From: Pseudobutyrivibrio sp. OR37
GTDB lineage: Bacteria; Bacillota; Clostridia; Lachnospirales; Lachnospiraceae
Length of the DNA stretch: 64,000 nucleotides
NCBI RefSeq assembly: GCF_900113655.1
Contig: NZ_FOQF01000005.1
Location: forward strand, 1 to 64,000
Direction: 5' to 3'
The notes beneath the pieces were generated by a model. It searched no databases. It was given only the letters and a program-made list of their open reading frames with translations, and had not been told where the DNA came from. The position numbers and the translations under genes are program-made. Below, piece after piece: positions 1,692 through 44,299 of this stretch. Within the stretch, counting starts at the first letter, position 1; every line of letters starts with the position of its first letter.

Positions 1692-1757
1692 ATTGTACCC
1701 CTTTCCCCCAAGGCAACCAATCTAATTATAATTTAACATATCCTGAAGAATACTAAA

Positions 1758-1851
1758 AGCCATTCTATTACGGTTACAAGCCTACTATTTCTACGCTCAT
1801 CTAACATGATTCGCTTTAGAAATAATAGAGCTTGTTACCTATAGAATGGCT
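1758..1851 (+). repeat. Dispersed hairpin element, copy A
   Basis: A ~94-bp palindromic element with outer stem AGCCATTCTA/TAGAATGGCT, junction TTACGG...ACAAGC with its partner GCTTGTTACC, inner stem ending in ATTTCT/AGAAAT and a loop containing CGCTCA and TTCGCTT. The same layout, with different but complementary stems, occurs at 14635, 22758, 39169 and, inverted, 44188. It lies in the gap between xylulokinase and the AGE isomerase and may also act as a terminator. Confidence 0.8.
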
Positions 1852-1878
1852 CTCTATAATTCAAAAATAAAATATAAA

Positions 1879-3336
1879 TTAGAACAATGATTTTACTGTT
1901 GGATAAAGCTTCTTGAACTCCTGATATCTCGCTTCGTATTTACGAATTAATTCTGGATCAGGCTCAACTGTTGTCTTTACCTTTACAAGCTTGTCGCAAG
2001 CCTCTTCAACTGATGCGTACTCGCCACAACCTACTGCTGCAAGGATAGCACCACCAAGACCTGGGCCTTCCTCGTTCTCAAGGATATCAAGCTTAAGGTT
2101 CATAACTGATGCGATAATCTGCTGCCATAATGGCGACTTAGCTCCACCACCGCAAATCTTGGAACGCTCGATTACGATTCCCTGGCTTCTAGCAACCTCA
2201 AGTGAATCACGAAGACCGAAAGCAACACCTTCAAGAACAGCCTGTGTCATATCCTCACGAGTTGTGTCCATAGACATACCGATGAACATAGCACGTGCAT
2301 CTGGGTTGTTGTGTGGGCTACGCTCTCCCATAAGATATGGAAGGTAGAATACACGGTTCTCACCAAGCTTCTTGATGCCAGCCTGCTCTGCTGGATAATC
2401 CTTTGTCTTAAGGATTTCATCCATCCACCACTTGTTGCAAGATGCAGCTGAAAGCATACATCCCATAAGGTGGTAACCACCATCAGCGTGGTCAAATGAG
2501 TGAAGTGCGTTTGCAGGGTCTACTGTAAAGTTCTTGCTAGAGATGAAGATTGTACCTGATGTACCGATTGAAAGGTTGCACTTGCCCTCTCCTACTGTAC
2601 CTGTACCAACAGCTGCTGCAGCATTGTCGCCAGCACCTGCGATAATCTTAACATCATTTGTAAATCCAAGCTCAGAAGCAACTTCAGGCTTGATATTGCC
2701 TACTACCTCATAGCTTTCATAAAGCTTTGGAAGCTGAGACTCTGAAACGTGGCAGATGTCCATCATTTCCTTACTCCAGCAGCGATTCTTAACATCTAAA
2801 AGAAGCATACCGCTGGCATCAGAATAATCTGTGCAGAAGCTTCCTGAAAGCTTGTAAGCAATGTAATCCTTAGGAAGCATAATCTTTGCTACCTTTGCCC
2901 AAAGGTCTGGCTCGTTCTCCTGCATCCAAAGAATCTTTGGAGCTGTAAAACCAGCGAAAGCGATGTTTGCTGTGTACTGAGAAAGCTTGTCCTTTCCGAT
3001 TACGTTGTTAAGGTATTCAGTCTCTTTTCCTGTACGTCCATCATTCCAAAGGATAGCTGGACGGATAACATTATCATCAGCATCAAGTGTTACAAGACCG
3101 TGCATCTGGCCACCGAAAGAGATACCTGCCACTAAAGTCTTGTCAACCTCTGAAGTAAGCTCCTTAATACCAGCTACTACCTGAGTCCACCAGTCCTCTG
3201 GCTTCTGCTCAGACCAGCCTGGATGTGGGAAGCTGAGGTCGTATTCTTTTGAAACGATTTTTGCAATCGTGCCATCCCCTGACATCAGGAGTAGCTTAAC
3301 TGCAGAAGTTCCTAAATCAACTCCGATATAATACAT
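1879..3336 (-). CDS. xylB: Xylulokinase (FGGY family)
   Basis: A 485-residue sugar kinase that would phosphorylate D-xylulose to D-xylulose 5-phosphate in the cytoplasm. The N-terminus IGVDLGTSAVKLLLM is the FGGY ATPase signature. Further landmarks are GGQMHGLV (substrate loop, near residue 80), ILWNDGR, AGAGDNAAAAVGTG near 255 and CGGGAKSPLWQQI near 405, where xylulokinases are well conserved. The start is the ATG at 3336 with AGGAG nine bases upstream, not the longer frame to 3399, which would run into a repeat. It follows the fucose-isomerase-like gene, with two inverted repeats and a T-rich hairpin between them that could attenuate it. Confidence 0.9.
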   Translation of the reverse strand: MYYIGVDLGTSAVKLLLMSGDGTIAKIVSKEYDLSFPHPGWSEQKPEDWWTQVVAGIKELTSEVDKTLVAGISFGGQMHGLVTLDADDNVIRPAILWNDGRTGKETEYLNNVIGKDKLSQYTANIAFAGFTAPKILWMQENEPDLWAKVAKIMLPKDYIAYKLSGSFCTDYSDASGMLLLDVKNRCWSKEMMDICHVSESQLPKLYESYEVVGNIKPEVASELGFTNDVKIIAGAGDNAAAAVGTGTVGEGKCNLSIGTSGTIFISSKNFTVDPANALHSFDHADGGYHLMGCMLSAASCNKWWMDEILKTKDYPAEQAGIKKLGENRVFYLPYLMGERSPHNNPDARAMFIGMSMDTTREDMTQAVLEGVAFGLRDSLEVARSQGIVIERSKICGGGAKSPLWQQIIASVMNLKLDILENEEGPGLGGAILAAVGCGEYASVEEACDKLVKVKTTVEPDPELIRKYEARYQEFKKLYPTVKSLF

Positions 3337-3367
3337 AACTATAATCTCCTTTATAAAAATAAAAAAA

Positions 3368-3415
3368 GCCTTCCCCCTCTGGGGGAAGGGGGACCGCATT
3401 AGCGGTGGATGAGGG
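3368..3415 (-). repeat. CCCTCATC double-hairpin repeat, copy 1
   Basis: Minus-strand copy of a ~48-bp repeat: GATGAGGG/CCCTCATC end, a first small hairpin (here ACCGCtaatGCGGT) and a second hairpin CTTCCCCCAGAGGGGGAAGG. In this orientation it is followed by a T7 tract just upstream of xylB, so it could act as a terminator or attenuator between the isomerase-like gene and xylB. Confidence 0.8.
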
Positions 3416-8645: not shown

Positions 8646-8670
8646 TAATAATCCATTGATAAATCACATA

Positions 8671-8776
8671 TCTTCTTTCATCCAGACTATACTGTCGGCT
8701 TCGGAATCACACCGAATCATGCCTTGCGGCTCGTGGGCTATACCACCGGTAGGGAATCACACCCTGCCCTGAAGAT
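8671..8776 (-). promoter_or_regulatory. FMN riboswitch (RFN element)
   Basis: Minus-strand RNA begins ATCTTCAGGGCAGGGTG and ends GTCTGGATGAAAGAAGAT. It contains the conserved segments GATTCCCTACCGGTGGTA, AGCCCACGAGCC and GGATTCGGTG-like/GTGATTCCGAAGCCGACAGT, which define the FMN aptamer. It lies directly upstream of ribD and, with the terminator at 8554, should switch the rib operon off when FMN is abundant. Confidence 0.97.
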
Positions 8777-8793
8777 GTTATTTAATTGAGAAG

Positions 8794-13913: not shown

Positions 13914-14621
13914 ATGACTAAGCAACAAATGTTCAAAATGTTACATGATGAGGAACCTGTGCTTAGAGCAGAAATCACTGCACTATACTCCGTATTGGAC
14001 CACAAGCTTGGCTTGCATGGTGCCGAGGTTCCTATCACCTTTGGAATGGACGAAAAGGCATTAGGCTCTTATCTTCCACCATCTTATGATGATGAAGAAC
14101 AGTTCCAGTTCTCATTATTCTTTATTGGCTTTTGCTTGAATGAGCAGCTATCAAAAACAGACCGCATCAATCTTTACAAGCATGAATATGCACACTATAT
14201 GACACGCCATATCAGTATTCCTAGCGAATACACTTGGCAGCCTGGTGTTCACGGTAGCGCATGGAAATATTGCTGTAGCTTAATCGGCGCTATTCCATCT
14301 GATTACTATGTAGAAGGCCAGAGTCTTAAAAAGGTAGATTATGATTCTGTATTAAAACGTCCAAACGTTGATCACGCTCAGGTGCAGATGCTTGACACAT
14401 ACCGCACACAGCGCGCATATAAAAATATGGAAAATTCCAAGATTAAATATGAAATTGGAGACACAGTATCTCACCCTAAATTCGGTGAAGGCACTGTAAA
14501 GGATATTGAAAAGCAGCCATCATCTGTAAGACTTCACATCGCATTCGGCGATGAAATCAAAATCATCGACCAGAAGTGGCTGGTAAAGACTGGATACAAG
14601 AAGGTATCTGAAAGACAATAA
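13914..14621 (+). CDS. SprT-like zinc metalloprotease fused to a Tudor-like domain
   Basis: A 235-residue protein. The zinc motif KHEYAHYMTRH (HExxH) sits near residue 87 and is followed by HGSAWK, the third-ligand region of SprT/Spartan-type proteases. Residues 180-228 (GDTVSHPKFGEGTVKDIE) match the Tudor-like C-terminal domain of UvrD/PcrA helicases, which binds RNA polymerase or nucleic acid. The fusion suggests a protease acting on DNA- or polymerase-bound substrates; this is inference. AAGGAGAC precedes the ATG. Confidence 0.75.
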   Translation: MTKQQMFKMLHDEEPVLRAEITALYSVLDHKLGLHGAEVPITFGMDEKALGSYLPPSYDDEEQFQFSLFFIGFCLNEQLSKTDRINLYKHEYAHYMTRHISIPSEYTWQPGVHGSAWKYCCSLIGAIPSDYYVEGQSLKKVDYDSVLKRPNVDHAQVQMLDTYRTQRAYKNMENSKIKYEIGDTVSHPKFGEGTVKDIEKQPSSVRLHIAFGDEIKIIDQKWLVKTGYKKVSERQ

Positions 14622-14634
14622 ACTGTGAAATAAC

Positions 14635-14734
14635 AAAGCCATCTAGTTACGGTAACAAGCCAAATTATTTCTTCGCTCAGCATAAAAAGCTTCGCTTAAG
14701 AAATATTTGAGCTTGTTACCTACTAGATGGCTTT
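14635..14734 (+). repeat. Dispersed hairpin element, copy B
   Basis: Outer stem AAAGCCATCTAG/CTAGATGGCTTT, junction TTACGGTAACAAGC paired with GCTTGTTACCTA, inner stem CAAATTATTTCTT/AAGAAATATTTG and loop CGCTCAGC...GCTTCGCTTAAG. It lies between two convergent genes and ends on the first base of the aroK stop codon, so it probably serves as a terminator for both. Confidence 0.85.
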
Positions 14735-15228
14735 TATATTTGCTTTAAAACCTGTGTTAGAGTTTGTTCTAGGTCCAGGCCGCCCTCGTCTACAATCACA
14801 TCGGCATATTTCTCGTAGAGAGGAATTCTTTCATTATACAAATCCTGAAGAGTCTGGCCATCCTTTAAAACCACACCACGTCCCTTAAGATTTCCCAGTC
14901 GGCTATCAAGGGTATCGTAATCCAGCTTCAAATAAACCACTGTTCCAATTTCCTTCAAATGCTCCATGGCCTCTGCTCCATAAATAACGCTTCCGCCGGT
15001 GGCAATTACCGTCTTTTCAGCCCTTATTGAAGCATTAACGTCATTTTCAATCTTAAGAAAGCCTTCCACTCCGTCTTCAGCAATAATCTCCTTTAAAAGA
15101 CGATTTTCACGCTCCTGAATCAGCAAATCTGCATCCACGAACTGAAAGCCCAATTCCTTTGCAAGAACAACCCCAAGAGTGCTTTTTCCAACACCTGGCA
15201 TACCAATCAAAACAATATTTTCCTTCAT
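14734..15228 (-). CDS. aroK: Shikimate kinase
   Basis: A 164-residue kinase that phosphorylates shikimate in aromatic amino-acid synthesis. Landmarks are the P-loop GMPGVGKST, the shikimate-binding DAD (residues 33-35), the IATGGS loop (usually GGG; here the third glycine is serine), lid region LKGRGVVL and RIPLYEKYAD. The start is ATG 15228 with AGGAG seven bases upstream; the longer frame would include a terminator. It follows desulfoferrodoxin, separated by a terminator-like hairpin. Confidence 0.92.
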   Translation of the reverse strand: MKENIVLIGMPGVGKSTLGVVLAKELGFQFVDADLLIQERENRLLKEIIAEDGVEGFLKIENDVNASIRAEKTVIATGGSVIYGAEAMEHLKEIGTVVYLKLDYDTLDSRLGNLKGRGVVLKDGQTLQDLYNERIPLYEKYADVIVDEGGLDLEQTLTQVLKQI

Positions 15229-15281
15229 AGCTATTCTCCTCATGCCTAATAAATTGGAAATATTATGCCATAACAGACTGC

Positions 15282-15312
15282 AAAAAGAAAGGCCTAGCTT
15301 GCAGCCAGGCCC
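15282..15312 (-). terminator. Terminator after desulfoferrodoxin gene
   Basis: Minus-strand stem GGCCTGGC/GCTAGGCC with loop TGCAA, followed by TTTCTTTTT, 13 bp after the stop codon. Confidence 0.75.
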
Positions 15313-15324
15313 AATAATTTTCAA

Positions 15325-20314: not shown

Positions 20315-20387
20315 TGAGGCTGAGGAGGCTCGAACTCCCGACAACCTGATTAAAAGTCAGGTGCTCTACCAACTGAGCTACAACCCC
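20315..20387 (-). tRNA. tRNA-Lys (TTT anticodon)
   Basis: A 73-nt cloverleaf: acceptor GGGGTTG/CAGCCTC, D arm AGCTCAGTTGGTAGAGC, anticodon stem CCTGA/TCAGG with loop CTTTTAA, and T loop GTTCGAGC. CCA is not encoded (GCA follows). Last gene of a six-tRNA minus-strand cluster; its 3' end is duplicated at 19310. Confidence 0.96.
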
Positions 20388-20440
20388 ATATTAAGTTGGT
20401 AAGTTGAGTATTGCCATAATAAAAAGGCATAGACTCGAAA

Positions 20441-20512
20441 CTGGGCTAGCTGGATTCGAACCAGCGAATGCCAGAATCAAAATCTGGTGCCTTACCGCTT
20501 GGCGATAGCCCA
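20441..20512 (-). tRNA. tRNA-Gln (TTG anticodon)
   Basis: Acceptor TGGGCTA/TAGCCCA with discriminator G, anticodon stem CCAGA/TCTGG with loop TTTTGAT, and T loop GGTTCGAATCC. A 72-nt cloverleaf without encoded CCA. Confidence 0.97.
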
Positions 20513-20559
20513 ACAAAGGACTTAAGTGCCCTTATTTAATTCGTTGCTACCGCAACAAG

Positions 20560-20634
20560 GGTGGGTAGAGGGGTTCGAACCCTCGACCTTCGGAACCACA
20601 ATCCGACGCGCTAACCAGCTGTGCCACACCCACC
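20560..20634 (-). tRNA. tRNA-His (GTG anticodon)
   Basis: Acceptor GTGGGTG/TACCCAC with the extra G at -1 opposite C73, the tRNA-His identity pair. Anticodon loop TTGTGGT; T arm GAGGGTTCGAACCCCTC. Confidence 0.97.
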
Positions 20635-20659
20635 ATACTGATAACTTAAAAGTTATAAA

Positions 20660-20733
<74 letters not shown>

Positions 20734-20758
20734 ATATTAACAAATTTTGAAAATAAAG

Positions 20759-20829
20759 AGCGGGTGATGGGAATCGAACCCACGTATTCAGCTTGGAAGG
20801 CTGATGTTCTACCATTGAACCACACCCGC
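20759..20829 (-). tRNA. tRNA-Gly (TCC anticodon)
   Basis: Acceptor GCGGGTG/CACCCGC, discriminator T, anticodon stem CAGC/GCTG with loop CTTCCAA, T arm GTGGGTTCGATTCCCAT. Confidence 0.97.
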
Positions 20830-20848
20830 AAACTAATTATTTCCTAAG

Positions 20849-20923
20849 TCGGGGTGACAGGATTCGAACCTGCGACCCCCTGGTCCCAAACCAGGTGCTC
20901 TAGCCAAACTGAGCCACACCCCG
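20849..20923 (-). tRNA. tRNA-Pro (TGG anticodon)
   Basis: Acceptor CGGGGTG/CACCCCG, anticodon stem CCTGG/CCAGG with loop TTTGGGA, T arm GCAGGTTCGAATCCTGT. First gene of the minus-strand cluster Pro-Gly-Arg-His-Gln-Lys. Upstream (20924-21175) I see only AT-rich sequence and weak hairpins. Confidence 0.97.
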
Positions 20924-22378: not shown

Positions 22379-22735
22379 TTATTCCAAAATATGGCTCAAG
22401 CCCTGGGCTATGATTGTGACTACGTGTTCATCGGCAAGGCTGTAATATATCTGCTTGCCCTCACGACGGCTTTTTACAAGCTTGTTGGTGCGTAGTATCT
22501 GAAGCTGATGTGATATGGCTGATTGAGTCATATCTAAGGCTTCTGAAAGGTCGCAGACACATAGCTCTGATTCAAATAATGCAAATAAAATTCTAACTCT
22601 TGTGCTATCCCCAAATACCTTGAAAAGCTCTGCAAGATCGTAAAGGGCATCCTCATCCGGAAGCTCATTAAGCACTTTATTAACCAGTTCTGTATGTACG
22701 CACTGTTCATCACAACACTGTGCATGTTTTTCCAT
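22379..22735 (-). CDS. ArsR/CadC-type metal-sensing repressor
   Basis: A 118-residue winged-helix protein: ALYDLAELFKVFGDSTRVRIL, the metal-site helix ELCVCDL, recognition helix MTQSAISHQLQILRTNKLV and wing REGKQIYYSL. ELCVCDL plus N-terminal cysteines (CCDEQC) is the CadC-type arrangement for Cd/Pb/Zn. It lies downstream of the P-type ATPase and probably represses the promoter at 24984 in the absence of metal. TCAGGAGG precedes the start. Confidence 0.92.
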   Translation of the reverse strand: MEKHAQCCDEQCVHTELVNKVLNELPDEDALYDLAELFKVFGDSTRVRILFALFESELCVCDLSEALDMTQSAISHQLQILRTNKLVKSRREGKQIYYSLADEHVVTIIAQGLSHILE

Positions 22736-22757
22736 GTCTACCTCCTGAGTACTTCTC

Positions 22758-22837
22758 GCTTGTTACGCAAACAATAATAAATATTCTTTCGTCGACTGAT
22801 GTCTCCTTCAGAAAATTTATTATTGTTTACTACAAGC
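22758..22837 (+). repeat. Dispersed hairpin element, copy D (divergent)
   Basis: Outer stem GCTTGT/ACAAGC, junction TACGC, inner stem AAACAATAATAAAT/ATTTATTATTGTTT and loop GTCGACTGATGTCTCCTTCAG. The loop closely matches copy E (CTCGACAACATGTCTCGCTT plus AAG). It lies between the ATPase stop and arsR and may end or attenuate the transcript. Confidence 0.65.
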
Positions 22838-22841
22838 TATC

Positions 22842-24713
22842 TTACACGTTATGTACGCGTAACGCGCGAATAGCGTTGAGCACTGCAATGACCATTACAC
22901 CTACATCTGCAAATATAGCAAGCCACATATTTGCCAAACCAATTGCGCCAAGAATTAAGCAGGCAATCTTTATGCCGATGGCGAAATAGATGTTTTCATA
23001 CACTATTCTCATGCATTTTTTAGCGATGTTTATAGCCTTTGCTATCTTCATTGGGTCATCATCCATAAGAACCACATCAGCGGCCTCTATGGCGGCGTCA
23101 GAGCCTAATGCGCCCATGGCGATTCCAATATCGGCCCTTGATAAAACAGGGGCATCATTGATGCCATCGCCTACGAATATCAGCTGCTCCTTTTCCTTTT
23201 TGGTAGCAAGTAGCTCCTCTACCTTTGTTACCTTATCAGCTGGCAAAAGCTCTGCGTAAACCTTATCAAGTCCTAAATCTCCTGCCACGATTTCTGCCAC
23301 CTGAGCGCTATCCCCTGTGAGCATAACTGTGTTTAGGATACCAGCATGCTTCATTGCTGAAATTGCAGCCTTAGAGGTAGGCTTAAGCTCGTCAGATATA
23401 AGGATATAGCCAGCATAGTTACCGTTAAAGGCAACGTGAATAACAGTGCCTGGCTCACGTACAGACTGGGCTGTCACGCCGATTTTTTCCATCAACTTTT
23501 CATTTCCAACATTAACAGTAATGCCGCCAATAACAGCCTTCACACCATGTCCTGAGATTTCCTCAACATCAGCTACAGAGCCAGTATTTATTGGCTTGCC
23601 ATAGGCTTCCTTTAAGCTCTTTGAGATTGGGTGATTAGAGTACACCTCCGCAATAGCTGTCTTCTCTAGAAGCTCTTCTTTAGTGACATTCACTGGAACA
23701 ATTTTTGTAACCTTAAACACGCCCTCTGTCAGAGTTCCTGTTTTGTCCATAACGGCGATTTTTGCCTTTGAGAGCATGTCTAAATAGTTAGAGCCCTTTA
23801 CAAGCACGCCCGCCTTGCTGGCGCCACCGATTCCTGCGAAAAATGTAAGTGGAATACTGATTACAAGTGCACATGGGCAGCTGATTACAAGGAAGGTAAG
23901 AGCTCTATAAACCCACTGTGACCAGTTAGCATCAATTCCTATGAGTAGGCTAACAACAGGTGGAAGCAATGCAAGTGCCACTGCTGAATAACATACAACC
24001 GGTGTATAAACTCTGGCGAATTTTGAAATGAAATTCTCTGGCTTTGATTTCTTGGAAGATGCGTTTTCCACAAGGTCCAATATCTTTGATGCTGTAGATT
24101 CACCAAATTCCTTTGTAGTTCTGATTTTAAGCACACCAGACATGTTAATGCAGCCTGATATAACCTCATCAGCTGGCTTGACGCTTCTAGGAACGCTTTC
24201 TCCTGTGAGAGCTGCTGTATCTAAGGTAGATGTGCCATCTAAAACCACGCCATCAATTGGAATCTTCTCTCCTGGCTGAACGATGATTTCACTGCCAACC
24301 TCAACCTCATCTGGATCAACCTGAGTAAGACTTCCATCAATCATTACATTTGCAAAATCAGGTCTGATATCCATAAGAGCTGATATGTTGCGGCGGCTCT
24401 TTCCAATAGCGTAGGACTGGAATAGCTCTCCAATCTGATAGAAAAGCATAACTGCCACGCCTTCGGTGTATTCTCCTAAAGCCATAGCGCCTATTGTGGC
24501 TACCGCCATCAGGAAATTCTCATCAAAGACCTGTTTATTTCTGATTCCCTTGAATGCCTTTAGCAAAATATCATAGCCAATAGTAAAATATGGAATCAAA
24601 AATAATAAGAATCTAAATATGCTTTTCTCCTCAAGAGGAAGCAACAGTAATACCACCATCATAGCAGCTGCTGCAATTATCCTCATCAATACCTTCTTTT
24701 GCTTCTTATTCAT
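22842..24713 (-). CDS. Zn/Cd-exporting P1B-type ATPase without N-terminal HMA
   Basis: A 623-residue membrane pump. Six or more membrane spans surround TGES (actuator), SCPCALV (transport-site CPC), DKTGTLTEG (phosphorylation Asp), SNHPISK (P1B His-Pro) and GDGINDAPVL. The sequence places it with ZntA/CadA exporters of Zn, Cd or Pb. The usual N-terminal metal-binding domain is missing; the small HMA protein encoded just upstream may substitute. Start ATG has AGGAGA upstream. ArsR follows downstream. Confidence 0.92.
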   Translation of the reverse strand: MNKKQKKVLMRIIAAAAMMVVLLLLPLEEKSIFRFLLFLIPYFTIGYDILLKAFKGIRNKQVFDENFLMAVATIGAMALGEYTEGVAVMLFYQIGELFQSYAIGKSRRNISALMDIRPDFANVMIDGSLTQVDPDEVEVGSEIIVQPGEKIPIDGVVLDGTSTLDTAALTGESVPRSVKPADEVISGCINMSGVLKIRTTKEFGESTASKILDLVENASSKKSKPENFISKFARVYTPVVCYSAVALALLPPVVSLLIGIDANWSQWVYRALTFLVISCPCALVISIPLTFFAGIGGASKAGVLVKGSNYLDMLSKAKIAVMDKTGTLTEGVFKVTKIVPVNVTKEELLEKTAIAEVYSNHPISKSLKEAYGKPINTGSVADVEEISGHGVKAVIGGITVNVGNEKLMEKIGVTAQSVREPGTVIHVAFNGNYAGYILISDELKPTSKAAISAMKHAGILNTVMLTGDSAQVAEIVAGDLGLDKVYAELLPADKVTKVEELLATKKEKEQLIFVGDGINDAPVLSRADIGIAMGALGSDAAIEAADVVLMDDDPMKIAKAINIAKKCMRIVYENIYFAIGIKIACLILGAIGLANMWLAIFADVGVMVIAVLNAIRALRVHNV

Positions 24714-39157: not shown

Positions 39158-39168
39158 ATCTTTACTCC

Positions 39169-39257
39169 GTAAACTGTTACGTATACAAGCATATATATAC
39201 TTCACTCGACAACATGTCTCGCTTAAGTATATATATAGCTTGTCTACTACAGTTTAC
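39169..39257 (+). repeat. Dispersed hairpin element, copy E
   Basis: Outer stem GTAAACTG/CAGTTTAC, junction TTACGTATACAAGC paired with GCTTGTCTACTA, inner stem ATATATATACTT/AAGTATATATAT and loop CACTCGACAACATGTCTCGC. It lies between the hydrolase and hemZ, with the hemZ ribosome site directly at its edge. Confidence 0.85.
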
Positions 39258-39268
39258 TCCTCTAAATT

Positions 39269-39895
39269 TTAACCTAAATAAGGATTGTATAATCTTTCTT
39301 CGCTAATTGTTGTAGGTTCGTTGTGGCCTGGGTAGCAGATGGTGTCATCATCAAGTGTCATAAGCTTTGATTTGATGCTTCCTACTAACTGAGACATTGA
39401 GCCGCCTGGGAAATCGGTACGTCCCACGGAACCACAAAACAGTGTATCTCCTGTAAATACAATTCCTTCCTTTTCAAAATAATAGCAGCAACCACCTGGT
39501 GTGTGGCCCGGTGTGAACAGGCACTTAACTTTAAGGCCGGCAAGCTCTATTTCCTCATCATCCTTAAGGAAGATGTCTGCTCTATAGGCTTCGCTGCTTC
39601 CGTACATATCACCAGAAAGATTGATAACTGGATTCTTAAGCTCGTCAGCGCAGGCCTCGTGAGCATAAATCTTTATTCCATATTCATCTGCTATTGTAGC
39701 TGCCTCTCCAGCATGATCAAAATGACCATGTGTAAGTAGCACTGCTACAGGCTTTGTGCCTGTCTGAGCTACTGCAGATTTAACTCTTTCTGCAGCTGAG
39801 CCTGGATCTATAATGATACATTCCTTTGTATCTTCGTTAATCGCCAAATAGCAATTTTCCATTGCCGCTGGCAGCATTACTTTTCCTACCTTCAT
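39269..39895 (-). CDS. Metallo-beta-lactamase-fold hydrolase (GloB-like)
   Basis: A 208-residue zinc hydrolase: THGHFDHAG (HxHxDH), TPGHTPGGCCYY, FTGDTLFCGSVGRTDFPGG and CYPGHNEPTT give the complete metal-binding set of glyoxalase II-like proteins. The start is ATG 39895 behind GGAGAGG; a longer frame begins at a TTG inside the ribosome site. It sits between relA and hemZ, a gene order that I recall as common in Clostridia. The substrate is probably a thioester, but this is not shown. Confidence 0.9.
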   Translation of the reverse strand: MKVGKVMLPAAMENCYLAINEDTKECIIIDPGSAAERVKSAVAQTGTKPVAVLLTHGHFDHAGEAATIADEYGIKIYAHEACADELKNPVINLSGDMYGSSEAYRADIFLKDDEEIELAGLKVKCLFTPGHTPGGCCYYFEKEGIVFTGDTLFCGSVGRTDFPGGSMSQLVGSIKSKLMTLDDDTICYPGHNEPTTISEERLYNPYLG

Positions 39896-39971
39896 AATCC
39901 TCTCCAAAATGTTAGAACAGCTATCCTTTGCGAAATAGCTGTTCTATATAGTCGTTACTATTAATTTCAAA

Positions 39972-42535: not shown

Positions 42536-44173
42536 ATGATTCAAGCAAATAATGTCACTCTTCGATTCGGCAAAAAGGCCTTATTTGAAGAAGTTAATAT
42601 CAAATTTACAGAAGGTAACTGCTACGGTATTATCGGTGCTAACGGTGCAGGTAAGTCTACTTTCCTTAGAATCTTATCTGGTCAGTTAGAGCCTACTAGC
42701 GGTGAAATCACTATGAGCCCTGGCAACCGTCTTTCATTCTTAGAGCAGGACCACTTCAAGTATGACGAGTTCACAGCTCTTGATACAGTTATCATGGGTA
42801 ACCAGCGTCTTTACGATATCATGAAGGAAAAGGACGCTATATATATGAAGGAAGATTTCTCTGACGAGGATGGAATCCGTGCTGCAGAGCTTGAAACAGA
42901 GTTCGCAGAAATGGATGGATGGAATGCAGAGTCAGATGCCGCTCAGCTCCTTAACGGACTTGGTGTTGATACTGAATTCCACTACACTCAGATGTCTGAG
43001 CTTCCAGGTGCATTAAAGGTCAAAATTCTTCTTGCTCGTGCACTTTTTGGTTCACCAGATGTACTTCTTCTCGATGAGCCTACTAACCACTTGGATTTAG
43101 ATGCTATTGCTTGGCTTGAAGAATTCCTTATTAACTTTGAAAATACAGTTATCGTTGTATCTCATGATAGATACTTCCTTAACAAGGTATGTACACATAC
43201 AGCAGATATTGATTACGGTAAGATTCAGCTCTACGCTGGTAACTATGATTTCTGGTATCAGTCTTCACAGCTTATTATTCAGCAGCGTAAGGAAGCTAAT
43301 AAGAAAAAGGAAGAGCAGATTAAGGAATTACAGGAATTCATCCAGCGATTCTCTGCTAACGCTTCTAAGTCTAAGCAGGCTACATCTCGTAAGCGTGCAT
43401 TAGAGAAGATTCAGCTTGATGACATCCGTCCATCTAGCCGTAAGTACCCTTACATCGATTTCCGCCCAGCTCGTGAAATTGGTAATGAGGTTCTTTCAGT
43501 TGAGAATCTTACAAAGACTATTGATGGTGAGCTTATCCTTGATCACCTTACATTCAATGTTGGTCGTGAGGACAAGATTGCATTAGTTGGTTCAAACGAA
43601 AAGGCCAAGACAGTTCTCTTCCAGATTCTTGCTGGTGAGATGGAGCCTGATGAGGGTAGCTACAAGTGGGGTGTTACTACTTCACAGTCATACTTCCCTA
43701 AGGACAACACTGAAATATTCAGCACAGACCTTCTTATCGTAGACTGGCTTACACAGTTCTCTGAAATTAAGGATGCTACTTATGTACGTGGATTCCTTGG
43801 ACGTATGCTCTTCGCTGGTGATGACGGCGCTAAGAAAATGAAGGTATTATCTGGTGGTGAAAAGGTACGTGTTCTTCTTTCACGTATGATGATTGAAAAC
43901 TCTAACGTACTTATGCTTGATGAGCCTACTGACCACTTAGATATGGAATCAATCACAGCACTTAATACTGGTTTACAGAAGTTCTCAGGTGTTATCCTCT
44001 TCTCTTCTCGTGACCACGAAATTGTACAGACTACAGCAAACCGTATCATCGAAATTCTTCCAAACGGACAGATGATCGATAAGATGACAACCTACGATGA
44101 GTATCTTGAGTCTGATGAGATGGCACGTAAGCGTACCGTACTTGAAATGGCTTCAAGCGATTTAGATGACTAA
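42536..44173 (+). CDS. ABC-F family ATPase (YbiT-like)
   Basis: A 545-residue soluble protein with two ABC domains and no membrane segments, as in ribosome-acting ABC-F factors. Domain one has GANGAGKST and LLLDEPTNHLDLD; the linker (about 235-300) is rich in Lys and Gln; domain two has signature VLSGGEKVRVLLSR and LMLDEPTDHLDM, but its P-loop reads GSNEKAKTV, departing from the usual GxNGxGKS/T. The departure may be a subfamily trait. AGAAAGGAAG precedes the start. It probably influences translation; resistance is not implied. Confidence 0.9.
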   Translation: MIQANNVTLRFGKKALFEEVNIKFTEGNCYGIIGANGAGKSTFLRILSGQLEPTSGEITMSPGNRLSFLEQDHFKYDEFTALDTVIMGNQRLYDIMKEKDAIYMKEDFSDEDGIRAAELETEFAEMDGWNAESDAAQLLNGLGVDTEFHYTQMSELPGALKVKILLARALFGSPDVLLLDEPTNHLDLDAIAWLEEFLINFENTVIVVSHDRYFLNKVCTHTADIDYGKIQLYAGNYDFWYQSSQLIIQQRKEANKKKEEQIKELQEFIQRFSANASKSKQATSRKRALEKIQLDDIRPSSRKYPYIDFRPAREIGNEVLSVENLTKTIDGELILDHLTFNVGREDKIALVGSNEKAKTVLFQILAGEMEPDEGSYKWGVTTSQSYFPKDNTEIFSTDLLIVDWLTQFSEIKDATYVRGFLGRMLFAGDDGAKKMKVLSGGEKVRVLLSRMMIENSNVLMLDEPTDHLDMESITALNTGLQKFSGVILFSSRDHEIVQTTANRIIEILPNGQMIDKMTTYDEYLESDEMARKRTVLEMASSDLDD

Positions 44174-44187
44174 TACATTTAAATAAT

Positions 44188-44287
44188 AAAAAAGCTCCTG
44201 TAGGTAACAAGCTATTATATTTCTTAAGCGAAGCATTCTAAGCTGAGCGTAGAAATATAATGCTTGTTGCCGTAACAGGAGCTTTTT
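44188..44287 (-). repeat. Dispersed hairpin element, copy C (inverted)
   Basis: Outer stem AAAAAGCTCCTGT/ACAGGAGCTTTTT, conserved junctions GTAACAAGC and GCTTGTTGCCGTAA, inner stem ATTATATTTCT/AGAAATATAAT, and a loop with the family's CGCTCAGC and GCTTCGCTTAAG when read on the minus strand. It follows the ABC-F gene and can terminate transcription in both directions. Confidence 0.88.
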
Positions 44288-44299
44288 AATACTTTAAAA

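Follow-up and report, generated by a model that had tools for sequence, protein, structure and literature searches.

Five copies of a hairpin element lie in the 64-kb window (the whole stretch of DNA that was analysed), all at the sites named by the first-pass annotation, and a covariance model of the element, R1, recovered the same five, its other rows in the window being weaker opposite-strand shadows and nothing else. The window also holds an FMN riboswitch (8666-8780, - strand; Rfam, 115.3 bits) and a cluster of six tRNA genes (20315-20923, - strand). The copies, denoted e1 to e5 and given with their R1 scores, their neighbours and the parts of e5 are the following, P1 being the outer stem and the conservation values referring to 131 copies from relatives:

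1752..1856, - strand: e1, 97.6 bits, in the gap between a xylulokinase gene (1879-3399, - strand) and a mannose-isomerase-like gene (468-1691, - strand), both named by family matches; outer stem of 13 bp with four U at its end
14631..14737, - strand: e2, 100.9 bits, in the convergent gap between the genes 13914-14621 (+ strand) and 14734-15324 (- strand); outer stem of 12 bp with a U-run of 3 on the - strand and of 4 on the + strand
22747..22847, - strand: e3, 67.3 bits, in the gap between a P-type ATPase gene (22842-24713, - strand) and an ArsR-type regulator gene (22379-22735, - strand), both named by family matches
39161..39264, - strand: e4, 90.6 bits, immediately 5' of hemZ (start 39157; family match above the cut-off), its end coinciding with the GGAG of the ribosome site
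39269-39907, - strand: metallo-hydrolase-like gene upstream of e4 (family match below the cut-off); e4 lies 3' of it
42536-44173, + strand: ABC-F-like ATPase gene upstream of e5 (matches below the NCBIfam cut-offs)
44186..44291, + strand: e5, 106.4 bits, z -9.91, a full element of the terminator type
44189..44201, + strand: 5' arm of the e5 outer stem P1, partner of 44275-44287 (sequence and fold)
44202..44202, + strand: 5' side of the e5 basal internal loop, the A of UAG (99%)
44207..44213, + strand: ACAAGC of the e5 inner stem, then the conserved bulged U (conservation and fold)
44272..44274, + strand: 3' side of the e5 basal internal loop, GUA (97-100%)
44275..44287, + strand: 3' arm of the e5 outer stem P1, with five U at its end (sequence and fold)

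Fold z-scores of the five copies ranged from -6.2 to -10.5 in the orientation given in the first-pass annotation and from -6.2 to -10.3 on the reverse complement, and on either strand none of 200 shuffles was as good. The energies of the reverse complement (-51.4, -55.0, -35.2, -39.4 and -53.1 kcal/mol) were lower than those of the originally described strand (-41.0, -49.2, -26.6, -34.6 and -46.3 kcal/mol) in 5/5 copies, so that the strand described was the complement of the better-structured one. On the structured strand, a variable P1 leads up to an A/GUA internal loop (U-A-G ... C-GUA-A); above this come a short helix that covaries, ACAA[GC]/[GC]UUGU with its bulged U, a variable helix rich in A and U, and at the apex a GA/GA loop, which may form sheared pairs. 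The common ground plan proposed for the five copies is thereby borne out, except that the ACAAGC...GCTTGTTACCTA junction is not present in all five (it reads ACAATA..TATTGTTTACTA in the 22.7 kb copy and GCTTGTCTACTA in the 39.2 kb copy), and the supposed loop of ~25 nt is actually a stem at the apex, interrupted by a GA/GA internal loop. The description of the copies as lying mostly at gene ends was half correct: two copies, at 22.7 and 39.2 kb, are directly 5' of the next same-strand gene, and the 1.76 kb copy is flanked by two genes of one strand.

The covariance-model search suggested by the first-pass annotation found further copies both in the genome and in its relatives. R1 was built from an alignment, A3, of 17 own-genome copies, and with it at least 57 copies, on one strand each, were detected in the own genome at E ≤ 2.1e-11, a count that is a lower bound because 150 of 1,449 candidates were scored. 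Further rows comprised a 58th copy (E 1.7e-7) and, from a tandem array, two units that overlap; of the rows left, almost all were opposite-strand shadows of the palindrome. A strict sequence pattern gave 16 matches in the 3.56 Mb genome vs 0 for a reversed-pattern control. Element size, taken over 191 copies, was 87-112 nt. All 19 genomes of a Pseudobutyrivibrio panel, the own one included, had matches, from 1 to 122 rows per genome when shadows are counted, and R1 matched none of 12 genomes from other families. Among 299 genomes drawn from Lachnospiraceae and searched with strict filters, the matching ones were the two Pseudobutyrivibrio, with 0/297 for the other genera at 13 candidates scored per genome; ordinary filters returned a single weak match (E 0.002) in 1 of 39 genomes of other genera. 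The element was thus not found in related Lachnospiraceae beyond the genus, where a search had also been proposed. Among the matches listed, 78 of 80 named loci with the pattern were titled Pseudobutyrivibrio; the other two, L121 and L127, carried the pattern without matching the model and were taken as chance. The model search of relatives' loci covered 100 of the 108 loci L047-L154. On a contig of P. ruminis AD2017 (L126), the flanks of two elements were 97-99% identical to own DNA, and in two further AD2017 loci, L134 and L135, one flank was 97% identical and the other 86% (L134) or 92% (L135), which suggests that the window belongs to P. ruminis or to a species close to it. That the element is not a named one agrees with the lack of any Rfam 15 match for the five copies at the gathering score or at E ≤ 5; the Rfam scan of the window gave the FMN riboswitch, tRNAs and weak unrelated matches only. 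A literature search, with preprints and most subscription papers outside its scope, found no such element in Pseudobutyrivibrio, and the word 'butyrivibrio' has 0 occurrences in the main texts of PMC3733652, PMC2267715 and PMC11109978. The element thus represents a family of dozens of hairpins of ~100 nt, limited to Pseudobutyrivibrio in what was searched.

Stems that covary had been claimed from the five copies. In A3, both-side changes were present in 22 of 31 pairs, and covariation reached 0.495 vs 0.149 in shuffled alignments, a value attained by 0 of 500 shuffles, slid structures giving at most 0.083; selection on structure, as suspected from the outset, is supported. Moreover, the helices carry a strand signature. 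G.U exceeded A.C by 61:4 in 59 own copies (binomial p 4e-14), by 93:4 in the 131 relatives' copies, counts that are not independent because orthologues are included, and by a weaker 14:4 in a 17-copy alignment made without the model, which corresponds to an excess of 15 to 23x in the model-based alignments and 3.5x in the model-free one. The own-copy set was reduced from 84 rows to 59 by removing opposite-strand shadows and one long low match, and the relatives' set, with 150 of 160 matches aligned, from 150 to 134 and then 131 after removal of shadows and identical sequences. Other mismatches in the own copies amounted to 59 cells vs 1,679 Watson-Crick cells. Separated by setting, G.U:A.C was 56:0 in sense, 24:2 in convergent and 8:1 in antisense copies. 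Mutation alone is expected to give both G.U and A.C; a transcription-linked C-to-T bias could tilt their ratio, yet not in the same way in antisense copies. Conservation was 92-100% for U-A-G opposite C-GUA-A, 100% for CAA/UUG, 99% for the bulged U and 87-95% for GA opposite GA at the apex, and the inner hairpin has at its foot a GTAG (columns 15, 16, 20 and 21) that was conserved at 95, 98, 99 and 92%. An outermost helix of UUUAG/CUAGG flanks that would hide the ribosome site was considered and rejected, its pairing being inconsistent by eye.

The genomic setting was recorded for 191 copies (60 own rows and 131 from relatives) on crude longest-ORF gene maps: 121 copies were co-directional and sense, 25 antisense, 31 convergent and 1 divergent, and 13 lay at locus edges. 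Gaps with an element were co-directional in 124 cases, convergent in 29 and divergent in 1, as compared to 158, 13 and 39 gaps without one; as most loci had been selected for the presence of an element, weight is placed on the divergent deficit alone (Fisher p 2.3e-9). In co-directional sense copies the model end preceded the following ORF start by a median of 15 nt. Genes found directly downstream were cysK, der, hypE, purE, araD, a truncated polA match and hemZ, and no pathway was shared by the named neighbour genes. P1, scorable in 185 of the 191 copies, had 87 distinct arms with pairing kept. Its median length was 11 bp in convergent copies, where a U-run (≥4 U) was present in 16 of 30 scorable copies, and 5 bp in co-directional sense copies, where a U-run was present in 7 of 118, e1 and e5 among these. 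P1 length and U-run follow gene context, with one head on two kinds of base.

We propose that the element is a non-autonomous repeat of the ERIC/REP kind that is kept as an mRNA punctuation hairpin, is probably bound by a protein and acts in transcripts, a reading that appears somewhat probable from the sequence comparisons. The hairpins would be transcribed within mRNAs and act there, and their constant loops and bulge look like the site by which a single trans-acting factor, for instance an RNase or an RNA-binding protein, would recognise them; the first-pass guess of a protein-binding RNA may thus catch part of this reading, the constant loops being what suggests the putative site. In convergent gaps the longer P1, with a U-run in about half of the scorable copies, would serve as a terminator, and in gene runs a P1 of ~5 bp without a U-run stands a few nucleotides ahead of the start codon that follows. 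The likely role would be punctuation of this kind, setting the 3' terminus of the preceding message together with the 5' end of the next one or the access to its start site, and the copies would have spread as a non-autonomous repeat. The proposal is favoured by the covariation, the lower energy of one strand in 5/5 copies, the G.U excess, the prevalence of sense over antisense copies, the divergent deficit, the dependence of P1 on context, the both-side changes that arose in place at orthologous sites and the nested and tandem copies. Several observations speak against it: orientation is not always kept (the e5 site and the der block of L242, described below), G.U prevails over A.C in antisense copies as well, the U-run is present in just 16 of 30 scorable convergent copies while e1 and e5 have one in spite of being co-directional, some orthologous pairs are broken, the named neighbours have no common pathway, many orthologous sites do without the element and the strand bias is weaker without the model. 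A further step, possible but rather doubtful, would be that one RNA-binding protein or endonuclease reads the A/GUA loop, the bulged U and the GA/GA apex at dozens of operon joints; with its head placed on a terminator or on a short start-codon stem, and spreading or being lost like a mobile element, the family would then be a dedicated punctuation code evolved in the genus.

Intergenic hairpin repeats of the ERIC/REP type are often viewed as selfish DNA with an occasional effect on mRNA. The family combines a strand signature and context-following stems with copies recently gained, lost or inverted between sequenced species, some of them isolates, and it allows the direct question of whether such repeats are kept for RNA function. 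It would also matter for annotation, since many genes of this rumen genus may receive their terminators or leader structures from the element.

Orthologous sites, selected for being occupied in the own genome, were compared in 29 genus genomes, the own one included. The e2 site was occupied in 8 of 26 loci (L333 being without the gene's 3' end), with 8/8 orthologous copies antisense to the queried gene and carrying several different P1 sequences. The e4 site was occupied in 5 of 28, all sense, with an additional weak antisense match in L345 and just ~46 nt of upstream DNA visible in L335. The e5 site was occupied in 4 of the 20 loci compared (28 matches), the own copy being sense and those of L221, L232 and L236 antisense. 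The gap upstream of der was occupied in 14 of 29 (L263 without the upstream region) and that upstream of cysK in 7 of 29 loci (L286 without the upstream region). Since it is absent there, the element is dispensable at many orthologous sites. At the der site, a two-element block is inverted in L242 and half an element is present in L257, and copies nested in one another were found at C52:32688, C23:11683 and probably C58:97316; occupancy thus differs between species through gain or loss, and flips, nesting and precise losses occur. In-place changes on both sides of a pair numbered 7 at e4, where L343, the sequence that diverges most, contributed the majority, 4 at cysK, 2 in der type A, 1 in der type C, 2 at e5 and 0 at e2, and orthologous pairs with a broken cell were found at e4 (3), in der type A (3) and in der type C (1). 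Viral contigs gave 0 matches to one exact pattern, so that carriage by phages is not supported. In L041, L207 and L215, elements have inserted into the apex region of another element or of a hairpin with identical flanking bases, and in L211 (C74:4913-5195) partial element units of ~90 bp form a tandem array. The 3' end of one gene bears elements of opposite orientation in two strains (L126 3221-3326 vs L210; L082 3923-4027), and the own genome is without either copy, probably by deletion. A second, G+C-rich repeat, like CGCTTGCC(T/A)AGGTTGAGTAGCCGC, directly adjoins the element in L044, L057, L088 and L208.

The family looks like a variant of the intergenic hairpin repeats of other bacteria, and the closest in kind is ERIC. 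Compared by description with PMC2229807, it resembles the MITE-like repeats ERIC, IRU and RU-1 (~100-200 bp) in being dispersed and intergenic, in its long predicted stem-loop and in its many copies within a limited bacterial group. For ERIC sequences co-transcribed with their neighbours, orientation-dependent mRNA destabilisation is reported in that source. Unlike in ERIC, the outer stem varies from copy to copy with pairing kept and follows context, and the family is so far restricted to Pseudobutyrivibrio. Comparison of filled and empty sites by eye showed no clear TA or target duplication, and the edges vary by subtype. With the GTAG REP/RAYT elements, as presented in PMC3733652, it shares dispersed copies and an imperfect hairpin with GTAG at its 5' foot, whereas its size is 87-112 nt vs 20-40 bp and its GTAG stands inside a longer hairpin with the GT paired with AC. 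A Y1 (IS200/IS605-type) transposase is present in 10 of the 29 genus genomes without a match in the own one; mobilisation by a RAYT/REP system was rejected on the lack of a PF01797 match in the own genome, and the family is not filed as GTAG REP because the size and transposase tests fail. In a structured-RNA survey (PMC11109978), mobile or repeat candidates are recognised by their copy number, by an orientation that is not consistent and by transposases or integrases in the vicinity. The element is like these candidates in being a structured motif with many copies per genome, and unlike them in being mostly sense in co-directional gaps, 121 to 25.

Alternatively, the family could be a selfish non-autonomous MITE- or REP-like element whose single-stranded DNA hairpin is read by a transposase or recombinase, with position and structure reflecting the mobiliser. 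Nested and tandem copies, presence or absence between species and flips are in line with this, as is the 92-99% conservation of GTAG at the inner-hairpin foot, which recalls the GTAG REPs (PMC3733652), and a single-stranded DNA structure would likewise yield strand-biased G.T. However, the Y1 transposase family (PF01797) is unmatched in the own genome and in 18 others of the 29, no target duplication was seen by eye in filled and empty pairs, and the avoidance of divergent gaps and the context-following P1 implicate transcripts. We therefore consider a purely selfish element unlikely, though not far-fetched; of the earlier guess of a mobile hairpin, the presence/absence pattern, the flips and the nesting stand, whereas a Y1 transposase match is missing from the own genome. 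That the family consists of intrinsic terminators only, the remaining copies being decayed or borrowed ones, is improbable. Like such terminators, about half of the convergent copies are a stem plus U-run (16 of 30 scorable, median P1 of 11 bp), and the 44.2 and 1.76 kb copies have stems of 12-13 bp with ≥4 U at the end. Unlike them, most copies have conserved internal loops and no U-run: 111 of 118 co-directional copies are without it, with a median P1 of 5 bp, and the conservation of loops and bulge would go beyond the known needs of termination. The first-pass guess of a terminator class is consequently right for part of the family; because the U-run is present in just 7 of 118 co-directional copies, it does not extend to the whole.

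Finally, the inner hairpin is absent and the terminator stem kept in L220 and L222 (e5 site) and in L313 (e2 site), the residual loops being TTACCTA or TTACGCTA. The absences would be in keeping with deletion between short direct repeats located at the base of the hairpin. Template-switch correction readily affects palindromic DNA, and it is very improbable that such correction of quasi-palindromes keeps the arms complementary without RNA selection while the copies hitchhike, an explanation that the base-of-hairpin losses might suit as slipped deletions, whereas asymmetric loop and bulge bases, which correction should erase, are kept at 97-100% and the excess of G.U over A.C, unexpected under it, opposes it in the present counts. 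Small hairpins with a TTAC(G)CTA loop were also considered as pre-existing insertion targets and rejected, deletion appearing to fit better; with a perfect stem, two occur in 1.39 Mb, both at the e5 site, and a third at the e2 site (L313). Upstream of cysK in L270, the left edge of the element is partly repeated with another top (ATGAGCCTGT ... ATGAGCCTGTAG), which suggests that the base of the element can carry other apices.
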